Assembly (NCBI GenBank): GCA_001508005.1
Contig: LGEZ01000001.1
Coordinates: forward strand, 1 to 52,391
Source: Clostridia bacterium 41_269
GTDB taxonomy: Bacteria; Bacillota; DTU086
DNA: 52,391 bases
Reading direction: 5' to 3'
Position numbers and translations under genes: made by a program. The notes under the pieces were generated by a model. That model saw only the letters and a list, made by a program, of their open reading frames with translations, searched no databases and was not told the origin of the DNA. Positions 8,132 through 52,135 of this stretch are shown piece after piece (within the stretch, counting starts at the first letter, position 1; each line of letters opens with the position of its first letter).

Positions 8132-8380
8132 CAAGTGGAAGTGAATATGTTCCTGCTATGAAGGAGAGTAGTAGCTGCTGGAGTTTCTCCAGAGAGCCGG
8201 GGTAGCTGGAAACCGGTGAAATGAAGGCAGTGAAGGCGCTCCTGAGCTGCAGGAGGAAAGCCCCATTTTGGGGTGAGTAAAGCCTGCTTAGATGAGAGGG
8301 TCAGTGTTTTTTGCTGGCCAAACAGGGTGGAACCGCGGGAAGCTCCCGTCCCTGTAGCTTTGCTGTGGGGGGGAGTTTTT
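8132..8380 (+). promoter_or_regulatory. Glycine-specific T-box riboswitch with terminator
   Basis: Uncharged tRNA-Gly should promote antitermination of glyQS. Stem I opens with AGGAGAGTAGTA (8162 on), whose AGGAG pairs with CTCCT at 8239-8243. Directly before that lies the likely specifier GGC (8235-8237). The AGAGAGCCGG and GCTGGAAACCGG arms follow the usual pattern. The T-box core AGGGTGGAACCGCGGG (about 8324-8339) has the UGGA bulge that matches the U discriminator typical of tRNA-Gly. A GC-rich terminator stem at 8342-8375 is followed by TTTTT. A second GGC at 8226-8228 makes the exact specifier slightly uncertain. Confidence 0.92.
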
Positions 8381-12215: not shown

Positions 12216-13063
12216 CCCATGAGAATGTATCTGCTGACAGCGGCTGCGAAGCACCGGTAATTTTTGTGGTTTCGGATTCGTTGGGAGAAACGGCTGAGTT
12301 TGTGGGAAGAGCTGCTGCCAGCCAATTTAACAGTGAGCAGGTTGAGGTACGAAGAATACCTTTTGTAAGTGATAAAGAGCATTTGGAAGAGATAGTGGAG
12401 GAGGCAAAAAGCTGCAGGAGTATAATTGCCTTTACTCTGGTTATTCCCGAACTAAGGGAATATCTTAAAAAGCTGGCTGAGGAGAATGATATTCCGGCCG
12501 TTGATATTTTGGGTCCAATGCTTGAAGCTATCAGCAGAATAACCAAAAAGCCTCCTAAGCTTGAACCTGGGCTTATGAGAAAACTTGATGAATATTATTT
12601 CAATAAGGTTGAAGCCATTGAATTTGCTGTCAAATACGATGATGGAAAGGACCCAAAGGGAATACTAAGGGCAGATGTAGTTCTCATTGGGGTTTCCCGA
12701 ACCTCCAAGACACCTGTCTGTATGTATCTGGCTCATAAAAGAATAAAGGCTGCCAATGTACCTCTGATGCCGGAGGTCTCACCTCCTGAGGAACTTTTTC
12801 AAATACCGAAAAACAAGGTTATAGGACTTACTATAAATCCTAAGCAACTCTATCAAATAAGGCAGAAAAGATTAAAAACCATTGGATTGTCTTCTGGTGC
12901 TGACTATGCCAGTTATGACAGGATATTAAAGGAGCTGGAATATGCTGAAGAAGTTATGAGGCGTATTGGATGTCCCATTATTGACGTCACCAATAGAGCA
13001 GTTGAAGAAACTGCCTCTAAAATACTAGAAATATATTATAAGGGGGAGCGACATGGAAGCTAA
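12212..13063 (+). CDS. ppsR: Pyruvate, phosphate dikinase regulatory protein (bifunctional kinase/phosphorylase)
   Basis: A 283-aa DUF299 protein that phosphorylates (ADP-dependent) and dephosphorylates the catalytic threonine of PPDK. The P-loop-like motif GVSRTSKTP (about 160-168) and the N-terminal [12 protein letters not shown] segment are diagnostic. It is sandwiched between the CcpN-like regulator (ATGA overlap) and ppdK (11-base overlap), its presumed target. Family members also regulate PEP synthase, but the adjacent gene here is PPDK. Confidence 0.93.
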
Positions 13064-15710
13064 AAAGTATGTTTATCTATTCGAAGAAGGAAGTAAAGAA
13101 ATGAAAAATCTTTTGGGAGGTAAAGGAGCCAATTTGGCAGAAATGACCAAAATCGGTCTTCCTGTACCTCCTGGGCTTACCATTACCACTGAATGCTGTA
13201 AGGAATATCTCGCAGCAGGCAACAAAATTCCTGAGGGCTTGGAAGAGCAGCTCATGGAAAAACTGGCTGTTTTGGAAGAAAAAATGGGTAAGAAGTTTGG
13301 GGATGAAAATAATCCCCTTCTGGTTTCCGTTCGTTCTGGAGCGCCGGTATCTATGCCTGGTATGATGGATACAATTCTAAACTTGGGCCTTAACGATAAA
13401 AGTGTTTTGGGTTTAGCCCAAGTAACCAACGATGAGAGATTTGCAAAGGACTGCTATAGGCGCTTCATTCAGATGTTCAGTGATGTTGTAATGGGTGTTG
13501 ACAGCATTGAATTTGAAAATGTTCTAGAAAGAGTAAAAAGCCAGAATGGGCTGGAGCACGACTATCAGCTTACCCCTGAACTATTGGACCAGATTATTGA
13601 CGAATTCAAAAAAATAGTCCGCCATAAAACAGGCAGTGAATTTCCTCAGGATCCAAAGAAACAGCTGATGATGGCTGTAGAAGCTGTCTTTAATTCTTGG
13701 AATAATGATAGGGCAAAGGTTTACAGAAAGATTAATAATATTCCCGATGATTTGGGAACCGCTGTCAATGTTCAGACTATGGTCTTTGGCAACATGGGAG
13801 AAGACAGCGGTACAGGTGTGGCCTTTACTCGAAATCCTTCCACTGGAGAAAACAAAATTTATGGAGAGTTTTTGGTCAATGCTCAAGGGGAAGATGTGGT
13901 AGCAGGTATAAGAACACCTCTTCCCATTGATGAGCTGAAAAACAAAATGCCTAAGATTTATGAAGAATTCGAGCAGATCTGCCGTAAGCTTGAAACTCAT
14001 TACAGAGATATGCAGGATATAGAATTTACCATTGAAAAAGGGAAATTATATATACTCCAGACCAGAAACGGTAAAAGAACTGCAGCAGCTGCAGTTAAAA
14101 TTGCAGTGGATATGGTAAACGAGGGACTTATTACCAAGGAAGAAGCAGTAATGCGCATTGAACCCCAGCAGCTGGAAAACCTCATGCACAGCAGAATTGA
14201 TCCTGACATAGATGTAGAGCCTTTGGCTAAGGGTCTTCCTGCTTCACCTGGAGCTGCAACGGGAGCCATTGTATTTGATGCTGATGAAGCAGAGGAATTG
14301 GCCAATAAAGAAGGGGCAAAAGTAATATTGGTTCGTACGGAAACCACTCCCGATGATATTCATGGAATGGTGGCTGCCCAAGGTGTGCTCACCAGCAGGG
14401 GCGGAATGACCTCCCATGCAGCAGTGGTTGCAAGGGGTATGGGTAAACCTGCTGTGGTTGGCTGCGATGCTATTAAAATTGATTATGCCAACGAAAAGTT
14501 TTATGTAGGCAGTGAAGAGTTTTCCAAAGGAGATATAATTTCCATTGATGGTGGAACGGGTTATGTTTACAGGGGAGAAGTTCCTATGGTTGAGCCAGAG
14601 CTGGGAGCCAACTTTGAGACCCTTCTCAGCTGGGCTGATGAGCTGGCAAAAGTGAAGGTTAGGGCAAATGCTGATAACCCCGAGGACGCTAGAAAGGCTA
14701 GAGAATTTGGTGCCGTTGGAATTGGTCTGGTGAGGACAGAACACATGTTCATGGACGGCGGAAGACTGGCTGCTATGCAGGAAATGATTCTTGCGGATAC
14801 TAGGGAAAAGAGGGAAGCAGCTTTGGCAAAGATTCTTCCTTTCCAAAGAGAAGATTTTTATGGAATTCTCAAGGAAATGGAAGGACTGCCTGTTACCATA
14901 AGGCTTCTGGATCCACCCCTTCATGAGTTTTTACCAAACTTAGAAGAACTACTGGTTGAAGTAACGGAGCTCCGCTGCACAAATAAAGATCCTGAGCTGC
15001 TAAAAGAAAAGGAAGCTCTTTTAAGAACTGTTCGCAGTCTTTCCGAACTCAACCCCATGCTGGGGCACAGAGGATGCCGTTTAGGACTGCATTATCCAGA
15101 GATTTATGCGATGCAGCTCAGAGCAATATTTGAAGCAACGGCACAATTGGTAAAGGAAGGGTATAGAGTATATCCTGAAATAGAAATGCCCCTGGTAATC
15201 CACGAAAATGAGCAGAAAAGGCTTAGGAAACAGGCTATTGAAGTGGCTGAGCAGGTGAAAAAAGAAACAGGAGTAGATTTCCCATATAAAGTTGGAGTAA
15301 TGCTTGAAGTGCCTAGGGCATGCCTTGTTGCAGATAAAATTGCTAAGGAATCGGATTTCTTCTCCTTTGGTACCAATGATCTTACTCAAATGGGGCTTGG
15401 TCTGAGCAGGGATGATGCCCAGGGTAAATTCCTTCACACTTATGTGGACGAAGGAATTCTGGAAAATGATCCATTTGTGGTAATTGATAGGGAAGCAGTT
15501 GGTGAACTAATGCGCATAGCAATTACTAAGGCTCGTTCGGTGGATCTAAACTTTGAATTCGGCATCTGTGGGGAGCACGGTGGAGAGCCCAACTCCATTG
15601 AATTCTGCCACCTTGTGGGGCTTGATTATGTAAGCGTTTCTCCTTACAGGGTGCCTGTTTCAAGACTCTGCTGTGCCCAAGCAGCTATAAAGCATAAAGA
15701 TAGATCATAA
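13053..15710 (+). CDS. ppdK: Pyruvate, phosphate dikinase
   Basis: An 885-aa PPDK interconverting pyruvate, ATP and Pi with PEP, AMP and PPi. Domains in order: N-terminal ATP-grasp ([31 protein letters not shown]), central swivelling domain with the phosphohistidine H455 in [13 protein letters not shown], and a C-terminal PEP/pyruvate TIM barrel ([33 protein letters not shown]). The threonine two residues before H455 is the expected target of the adjacent PpsR. The ATG overlaps ppsR by 11 bases. A strong terminator follows. In anaerobes it serves gluconeogenesis or pyrophosphate-linked glycolysis. Confidence 0.97.
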
Positions 15711-28852: not shown

Positions 28853-29227
28853 AGCTGTTGAGTAAATCAGGTGGTCGCGGGCATATCTTAGCATATGCCT
28901 GAGGAAAGTCCGAACTCCATAGGGCAGGGTGCTGGATAACATCCAGTGGGGGCGACCCTAAGGAAAGTGCCACAGAAACAGACCGCCTAGCCTTTTGTCT
29001 GCATTTGCAGTGGGGCTGGGTAAGGGTGGAAAGGTGAGGTAAGAGCTCACCAGCAGGTTAGGCGACTAACCTGGCTCGGTAAACCCCACCCGGAGCAAGG
29101 CCGAATAGGGGAACATATGAAGTGGCCCGCTTCGTTCCCGGGTAGTGCCGCTTGAGGTGTCAGGCAACTGGCATCCCAGATAGATGACCACCTAAACAGA
29201 ATTCGGCTTATGATTTGCTCAACAGCT
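28853..29227 (+). ncRNA. rnpB: RNase P RNA, class A
   Basis: Catalytic RNA that matures tRNA 5' ends. The ends pair in a 17-bp P1 helix (AGCTGTTGAGTAAATCA with its near-perfect complement at 29211-29227). Universal cores are present: GAGGAAAGTCCGAACTCC near 28900, ACAGAAACAGACCGCC, GGTAAACCCCACC and the 3' AGATAGATGACCACC with ACAGAATTCGGCTTA. Length about 375 nt suits class A. Confidence 0.96.
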
Positions 29228-33690: not shown

Positions 33691-33718
33691 AATGGGTTAA
33701 GCTTTTTACCAACAAAGG

Positions 33719-33934
33719 GGTATCTGCTATAATTTTTTTACTTCTGAATTCACGTTAGACAGCTCTAAGCAAAGCTTTCGGGGCAAAACCGGGCCGCCTC
33801 AAATTCGACATACTGTGAGAGATTGGCTTATTCTTATCTTATGTAAGCACTTCCCGGTTTTGCCTTACGCTTTGCCAAGAGCTGCTAGCGGCATTCATTT
33901 ATCATTTAGTTGTTCGTAAATCACAGCAGAGACT
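33719..33934. repeat. Inverted-repeat intergenic element, copy 1
   Basis: About 216 bp, homologous to copy 2 at 51845-52056. Outer ends are GGTATCTGCT and AGCAGAGACT, an imperfect terminal inverted repeat. Inside, GGCAAAACCGGG (left) and CCCGGTTTTGCC (right), flanked by GCTCT...GCAAAGC and GCTTTGCC...AGAGC, form a long hairpin arm. No protein frame is evident. Both copies lie between convergent genes, here pstS and phoR. It is MITE-like in form; origin and mobility are inferred. Confidence 0.75.
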
Positions 33935-33971
33935 TATTTAAACATACTTTGGGTTTGTCTTTTAGTTGATT

Positions 33972-50331: not shown

Positions 50332-51080
50332 AACAGCTGTCTAAAACTTTTGGCGGGCTTGAGGCGCTGAAAAACTTTGAACTCAGCCTTGAAAAAAAGG
50401 AACTGGTGGGATTAATAGGGCCCAATGGTGCGGGAAAAACCACTGTATTCAACCTTCTTACCGGAGTCTATAAGCCTACCAGCGGGACCTTTTATCTGGA
50501 GGGAAAGTGTCTTTTAGGGTTAAAGCCCCATCAGATAACTTCGTGCGGAATTGCCAGAACATTCCAAAATATTCGTCTATTTGGGGATTTAAGTGTTTTT
50601 GATAACGTTCGTGTTGCCAATCACTGGTACAGCAGCTATCCTGTAGCCAATGCTGTTTTAAGGTTGCCCAGTTACTTTAAATATGAGAGGAGAATGTCCC
50701 AGAGGGCGTATGAGCTTTTAGAAATTTTCAACCTTTTGGATAAGAAAGACGAGTTGGCAAAAAATCTTCCCTATGGAGAACAGCGCAGGCTCGAAATAGC
50801 GAGGGCTTTAGCTGCAAAACCAAAGGTCCTTCTTTTAGATGAACCTGCGGCTGGAATGAATCCATTGGAAACAAAGGAGCTTATGAATTTAATTTCATGG
50901 ATCAGAGAGGAATTTAATTTGACTATACTTCTTATTGAACATGATATGTCTTTGGTTATGGGAATCTGTGAAAGAATTATAGTCCTTGATCATGGTGAAA
51001 TTATAGCTCAGGGCACTCCTGAAGAAATCAAACGCAATCCTCGTGTTATTGGGGCTTATCTGGGAGAGGAGGCAGTTTAA
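50313..51080 (+). CDS. livG: Branched-chain amino acid ABC ATPase LivG
   Basis: A 255-aa ATPase with Walker A GPNGAGKTT, a GIARTFQNIRLF segment typical of LivG, PYGEQRRLEIARAL signature and Walker B LLLDEPAAGMNP, switch IEHDM. ATG at 50313 has GGGG upstream inside livM. It ends at the livF start with one-base overlap. Confidence 0.93.
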   Translation: MALLEVKQLSKTFGGLEALKNFELSLEKKELVGLIGPNGAGKTTVFNLLTGVYKPTSGTFYLEGKCLLGLKPHQITSCGIARTFQNIRLFGDLSVFDNVRVANHWYSSYPVANAVLRLPSYFKYERRMSQRAYELLEIFNLLDKKDELAKNLPYGEQRRLEIARALAAKPKVLLLDEPAAGMNPLETKELMNLISWIREEFNLTILLIEHDMSLVMGICERIIVLDHGEIIAQGTPEEIKRNPRVIGAYLGEEAV

Positions 51081-51784
51081 TGCTGTCCATTAAGGATATT
51101 GACGTTTATTACGGTGCAATCCATGCTCTTAAGGGAATTAACCTAGAAATAAAACAGGGGGAAATAGTAACCCTCATAGGGGCAAACGGTGCCGGCAAAA
51201 GCACAACTTTAAGAACCATTTCAGGTCTTGTGCATCCTAAAAAGGGAACCATAACTTTTGAAGGTCAGGATATTACTCGGCTTCCTGCTCAGAAAATTGT
51301 GGAACTTGGCATATCTCATGTTCCCGAAGGAAGACGTCCCTTTGCTAAAATGACGGTGCTTGAAAACCTTGAGCTGGGCGCCTATCTCCGTAAAGATAAG
51401 GACGGTGTTAGAAAGAGTTTGGAAAGGGTTTTTGAATATTTTCCAAGGCTGAAGGAAAGAATGTATCAAAAGGCTGGGACTTTGAGCGGTGGGGAACAGC
51501 AGATGCTTGCCATAGGACGAGCTTTGATGTCAAAGCCTAAGCTTCTGCTTCTTGATGAACCGTCCATGGGTCTTGCCCCTATTTTGGTGCAGGAGATATT
51601 CAAAATTATCAAGGAAATTAACGAAGCTGGGACAACCATTCTGCTGGTGGAGCAGAATGCCCATATGGCACTGCAGATAGCGGATAGAGCCTATGTTCTT
51701 GAAACGGGGAGAATAGTTCTTTCGGGAGCTGCAGAAGAGCTGGCAGAAACAGAAGCGGTAAAGAATGCCTATTTGGGTGGCTGA
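51080..51784 (+). CDS. livF: Branched-chain amino acid ABC ATPase LivF
   Basis: A 234-aa ATPase with Walker A GANGAGKST, the LivF-specific SHVPEGRRPFAKMTVLENL, signature LSGGEQQM and Walker B LLLDEPSMGLAP. The ATG overlaps the livG stop (TAATG). It ends the operon and is followed by a terminator and the second inverted-repeat element. Confidence 0.93.
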   Translation: MLSIKDIDVYYGAIHALKGINLEIKQGEIVTLIGANGAGKSTTLRTISGLVHPKKGTITFEGQDITRLPAQKIVELGISHVPEGRRPFAKMTVLENLELGAYLRKDKDGVRKSLERVFEYFPRLKERMYQKAGTLSGGEQQMLAIGRALMSKPKLLLLDEPSMGLAPILVQEIFKIIKEINEAGTTILLVEQNAHMALQIADRAYVLETGRIVLSGAAEELAETEAVKNAYLGG

Positions 51785-51804: not shown

Positions 51805-51830
51805 AAAAAAGGGGGCAAAAGCCCCTTTTT
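51805..51830 (+). terminator. liv operon terminator
   Basis: GGGGC-AAAA-GCCCC with an A-run on the left and five T residues on the right; 21 bases after livF. Confidence 0.85.
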
Positions 51831-51844
51831 AGCTTATGGAAAAA

Positions 51845-52056
51845 GGTCTCTGCTGCAAGTTTTTTTACTCCTGAACTCACGCTGGACATCTCTAAGCAAC
51901 GCTTAAAGGCAAAACCGGACCGCCCCAAATTCGACATCCTATCTCAGTTGGGGCTGGCGCTCACATCCTATTCGTGCCTCCCGGTTTTGCCTAACGCTTT
52001 GCAAAGAGCCGATAGCCAGTGCTCGTTAAGTCGTTTCGCAAACCGCAGCAGAGACC
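51845..52056. repeat. Inverted-repeat intergenic element, copy 2
   Basis: 212 bp. The ends GGTCTCTGCTGC (51845-51856) and GCAGCAGAGACC (52045-52056) form a perfect 12-bp terminal inverted repeat. The internal arms GGCAAAACCGG/CCGGTTTTGCC and the AAATTCGACAT stretch are shared with copy 1 at 33719-33934. No protein frame is seen. It lies between livF and a convergent thioesterase gene. Confidence 0.8.
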
Positions 52057-52113
52057 TGCCAAAATTCTAATAATTCTAATAATAGGGTTAGTATTTAGGC
52101 TGTAGGGGGTAAG

Positions 52114-52135
52114 AGGGGCAAAAGTCCCCTTTTTA
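52114..52135. terminator. Possible terminator between repeat and thioesterase gene
   Basis: GGGG-CAAAAGT-CCCC followed by T-rich sequence (plus strand). It resembles the liv terminator and overlaps the thioesterase stop, so it may terminate transcription from either side. Confidence 0.45.

Follow-up and report, generated by a model that had tools for sequence, protein, structure and literature searches.

The insertion sequence IS1272 of staphylococci, the studied member of the IS1182 family, targets hairpins and terminators by their structure, and in the insertions studied the target hairpin was replaced or trimmed and no duplication was formed (PMC5678879, PMC4923244). The model in PMC5678879 includes duplication of the whole hairpin as its pathway b, although the data there showed replacement. 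The TwoAYGGAY motif (RF01731) was first described as a probable RNA without an assigned function, from human gut samples, Gammaproteobacteria and Clostridiales (PMC2864571); it has been proposed to bind CsrA, and its external stem is poorly conserved (PMC4333381). Two further systems are the CsrA-sponge RNAs of the CsrB/RsmZ type, which are single-locus genes in Gammaproteobacteria (PMC4333381), and the bacterial MITEs RUP, BOX, SPRITE and Correia, which are short, non-coding and intergenic, have terminal inverted repeats and reach high copy numbers (PMC10969869).

We analyzed a 52,391-nt stretch of the Clostridia bacterium 41_269 genome (contig LGEZ01000001.1; the window). An element of ~275 bp at 51829-52103, for which no strand is assigned, is very probably an IS1182-type MITE, presumably mobilized in trans, that inserted into a terminator, with duplication of the whole hairpin. 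Its extent is taken from an alignment of the repeat family with its flanks and from an empty site in the congener G001. The element is short, non-coding and multi-copy, the terminal repeats of its family consensus match those of IS1182 elements, and its target duplication comprises a whole hairpin.

The first-pass annotation had described perfect 12-bp inverted repeats as the ends of an element bracketed by two similar hairpins. The repeat is perfect over 13 bp (AGGTCTCTGCTGC at 51844-51856 on the plus strand and GCAGCAGAGACCT at 52045-52057 on the minus strand), and the 214-nt unit that it encloses (51844-52057) has an RNA folding energy of -97.8 kcal/mol, compared to -66 +/- 5 kcal/mol in shuffles (z = -6.5). 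Because its fold lies so far below the shuffles and it recurs in similar places across its own genome, the unit is no chance palindrome. The 13-bp repeat, however, is the inner part of the ~275-bp element, and the true ends lie further out. In the family alignment, similarity continues past the inner repeats to TCAGCTTGTTGACAAA on the left and TTTGTnGACAGTCTGA on the right, and the family consensus has outer terminal repeats of ~15 bp on the left and ~30-46 bp on the right, placed directly against the hairpins. The outer inverted repeat of the family, read from its better-preserved copies, is (T)CAGnnTGTnGACAAA. The window copy is an older copy with eroded outer repeats, TTAGCTTATGGAAAA on the left (51829-51843, plus strand) and TTAGTATTTAGGCTGT on the right (52088-52103, minus strand), which have three and five mismatches to the IS1182-type end, respectively.

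The element contains no open reading frame of at least 80 amino acids. A sigma-70 scan found one weak site, no more than in shuffles, and we therefore make no claim of a promoter. We also considered, and rejected, an insertion next to terminators in the manner of a group IIC intron, as there was no intron RNA match and the unit is too small for a reverse transcriptase.

The body of the element, overlooked by the first-pass annotation, is a described RNA motif. Positions 51873-52028 of the minus strand align with TwoAYGGAY across all 168 model positions (1-168), with a full-length three-way-junction fold and two GGA-containing hairpins. The match scores 40 bits (E-values of 1e-4 to 2.5e-5), 3 bits below the gathering score of 43, while several sibling copies in the same genome pass that score, reaching up to 53.7 bits. 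Unlike the motif for which the family is named, both loops of the window copy read UAGGAU and not AYGGAY. The external stem of TwoAYGGAY is here the inverted-repeat arm of the MITE, and a motif whose Rfam type is Cis-reg is here the core of a mobile element.

Such a fold may instead act as DNA, as a single strand or cruciform seen by the transposition or replication machinery, a reading that we consider possible but doubtful. It agrees with the stable folding of the element as single-stranded DNA (z = -5.7) and with a transposition target that is itself a hairpin. The comparison of 35 copies argues against it: in 32 of them the TwoAYGGAY strand gives the better fold of the two strands, and loops 1 and 2 retain the GGA in 24 and 32 copies, respectively. 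Among pairs predicted from both strands, G-U exceeds A-C by 21 to 4 on the TwoAYGGAY strand, but this test is only suggestive because the excess over the union of predicted pairs is small (106 to 85) and structure prediction favors its own strand.

The case for insertion of an IS1182-type MITE begins with the flanking hairpins. These lie at 51807-51831, a bidirectional terminator hairpin on the livF side, and at 52111-52135, on the side of the convergent gene; they are 80% identical over 25 nt, and both score as intrinsic-terminator-like. The upstream gene (51080-51784, plus strand) encodes a LivF-like ABC transporter ATPase, a name assigned from sequence and gene order and not from a family search. 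In G001 (locus L204) the gene order is the same, livF and then the convergent downstream gene, and the interval holds a single terminator, CAGGGGCGAAAAAGCCCCTTTTTATTTTTT, and no element; in the window genome the same terminator is present twice, with the element between its copies. We identified the single terminator in the L204 sequence itself, as the MAFFT alignment was wrong in the left part of the empty site. The arrangement differs from an IS1272-like replacement without target duplication, as two hairpin copies flank the element while the empty site has one.

The element belongs to a repeat family. We listed 28 matches in its own genome (G000; 1.67 Mb in 30 contigs) at ~25 distinct places, some of them partial and some at contig ends, and found more than 10 copies each in G001 and in G002, which represents another genus of the family. 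The window itself contains a second, more diverged copy between convergent genes (33718-33935, no strand assigned), without clear terminator duplication. We scanned other GTDB genomes, excepting records near the window's genome, for exact patterns of this MITE subtype and found none; by this measure the subtype looks confined to this genus. As in RUP, BOX, SPRITE and Correia, the copies are intergenic. Of the 40 in G000 and G001, 37 lie behind at least one gene end. Unlike in those MITEs, insertion here is into an entire terminator hairpin, with duplications of 18-29 bp, and the body is a described RNA family.

Directly outside its outer repeats, a typical copy has one hairpin sequence on its left and right alike, and this sequence varies between loci, for example GGGCCGTAAAAACGGCCC in L060 and AACCGCCTCGGCAGGGGCGGTT in L081. 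The left and right hairpins of one copy score far higher than pairs taken from different copies, and none of 10,000 permutations reached the observed mean (P < 1e-4). The clear matches abut the outer repeats, almost or entirely without a gap, and extend over 18 to 25 bp, a length that follows the hairpin. In about half of the copies, mostly those of G001, the clear hairpin pair is gone. The suggestion in the first-pass annotation that the element had inserted in, or duplicated, a terminator region is supported by the empty site, by these locus-specific pairs and by the IS1182 elements described below; the target-site duplication that it recommended seeking is the duplicated hairpin itself, which adjoins the outer repeats in the better-preserved copies.

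At one orthologous site, the element is found in opposite orientations in G000 (L066:1783-1996) and G001 (L086:3040-3253), which would result either from inversion across the long inverted repeats or from two separate insertions into the same terminator.

We searched 399 genomes of the phylum for IS1182-family transposase genes (NF033551) and fetched 30 loci, of which 13 have paired ends of the type found here. On either side of nine of these 13 elements lie perfect direct repeats of 21-35 bp, all of them hairpins, such as AGCAGAAGTGAAATCACTTCTGCT in L153 and AAGCGCAGGAGTAGTTTTTACTACTTCCTGCGCTT in L154. A transposase family with matching ends, which the first-pass annotation had proposed looking for, thus exists and makes the same kind of hairpin duplication. 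Target repeats in the IS1182 family are of very variable length, and its duplication of hairpins may therefore be partly known to specialists. The intact Bacillota elements with perfect duplications (L154, L149-L151, L153, L155, L163, L168 and L176) are genomic cases of the whole-stem-loop route modelled in PMC5678879, adding genomic evidence for what that paper drew only as a model. The window element shares with the IS1182 family its outer ends, CAGnnTGTnGACAAA, and the use of hairpin or terminator targets without sequence preference (PMC5678879, PMC4923244), but has no transposase gene; it differs from IS1272 in that the hairpin is duplicated whole. From the shared ends and the shared hairpin duplications, it is therefore best read as an IS1182-type MITE that would target hairpins by their structure.

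A candidate parent is present in the genome of the window. Three contig pairs meet at an IS that has the same 15-bp ends and breaks the assembly; its interior is missing from the assembled sequence. Read from its flanks, this IS has a perfect 27-bp hairpin duplication at C21|C10 (L128, L124) and a perfect 26-bp one at C3|C26 (L123, L076), while the third pair, C14|C18 (L125, L126), has no duplication. The NF033551 search returned nothing in G000, G001 and G003 and fragments only in G002. Because the interior is unassembled and neither G000 nor G001 yielded an IS1182 gene, we infer the family of this parent, IS1182, from its ends and its target behavior. A relic is also present at L127:2598-2684.

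These comparisons suggest how the element may have arrived. An IS1182-family DDE transposase acting in trans would recognize the outer repeats (T)CAGnnTGTnGACAAA and pick its target by shape, a hairpin or cruciform to whose 5' feet the element would be joined. In the window, the target would have been the bidirectional terminator between livF and the convergent gene. Gap repair would then copy the whole hairpin to both sides of the element, leaving each neighboring gene with a terminator. Since both neighbors would keep their terminators, insertion would be nearly harmless and copies could build up, which would explain the high copy number. The inserted body is a long inverted repeat around the TwoAYGGAY fold, which lies on the other strand from livF; a transcript of it, if one is made, would present one or two GGA loops that might bind CsrA.

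The same locus could be read as a stationary small RNA gene, encoding a trans-acting, CsrA-binding TwoAYGGAY RNA that spread by ordinary duplication and whose flanking hairpins are its own terminators. The Rfam match with two GGA loops, the co-occurrence with CsrA (see below) and the bidirectional terminators on both sides would fit such a gene, but the flanking hairpins vary between loci while matching within each one, and the empty site has one terminator. The outer repeats, moreover, match those of an IS family in which the same duplications occur, and we regard a stationary gene as very unlikely, though a functional RNA riding on the MITE is possible. Still less probable is a terminator pair that arose locally, through tandem duplication or gene conversion, and received the element between its copies later, by chance or recombination: conversion could have kept the window hairpins 80% identical, but the same pattern, with hairpins touching the element ends, recurs at many unrelated loci, autonomous IS1182 elements have perfect repeats, and G001 has a single terminator without the element.

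We also examined TwoAYGGAY elements in other genomes. The motif was found in 51 of the 399 genomes, usually in several copies, and in a deeper search of 61 genomes the count reached up to 26 copies per genome. The same architecture, with IS1182-type ends and hairpin duplications, occurs in two other families: in f52 (G258 and G234), with duplications of 20 and 29 bp in L221 and L222 and of 27 bp in L235, and in f74 (G120), with duplications of 21-23 bp in L228, L229 and L236. The elements of G161 (f12) have similar ends without clear duplication. No IS1182-type ends were seen around TwoAYGGAY in G047, G031, G060, G020, G006, G014, G246, G222 and others, most of which were represented by one locus or a few. 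Elsewhere, the core lies within repeats with different arms. One such case is G047 (L031, L040, L050, L057 and L106-L115), where 6 of 14 copies have direct repeats of ~8-12 bp at a consistent position. These repeats therefore point to another transposition system, which seems to carry TwoAYGGAY cores as well. In G031 and G060, the local direct repeats around the copies are about as long as those in mismatched pairs.

These results give a mobile-element identity to a fifteen-year-old orphan RNA family, RF01731, in at least three to four bacterial families. They also offer a reason for its multi-copy scatter and for its poorly conserved outer stem, which there is the arm of a MITE. A literature search with subscription journals mostly outside its range turned up no report of such MITEs and none that connects TwoAYGGAY with a mobile element.

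The proposal that TwoAYGGAY binds CsrA can now be recast as the testable question of whether sites bound by a global regulator travel on a mobile element. The host genome has a CsrA gene, and CsrA was found in 49 of the 51 genomes with TwoAYGGAY, compared to 236 of the 348 others (Fisher P = 4e-6, not corrected for phylogeny); the two TwoAYGGAY genomes where it was not found are G182 and the 75%-complete G236. This co-occurrence is compatible with CsrA binding by the core but is not a demonstration of it. The core resembles CsrB/RsmZ-type RNAs in its paired GGA hairpin loops and in a host with a CsrA gene, with putative binding here, and differs from those single-locus genes in being a multi-copy mobile element. 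As a tentative generalization, which we hold with limited confidence, TwoAYGGAY as a class could be mobile-element cargo, a CsrA-binding RNA present in dozens of copies across Bacillota genomes and carried by MITEs that belong to two or more transposition systems; one of these systems would place it in terminators through duplication of the entire hairpin. If so, the CsrA network of the host would be titrated by a mobile, dispersed RNA sponge.

The window contains two further structured RNAs, a T-box leader (8149-8356, plus strand) and a class A RNase P RNA gene (28859-29225, plus strand), both of which are ordinary. It also encodes an 885-aa protein (13053-15710) whose closest named record, at 93% identity, is the uncultured Clostridia MAG JAAYIF010000051.1.
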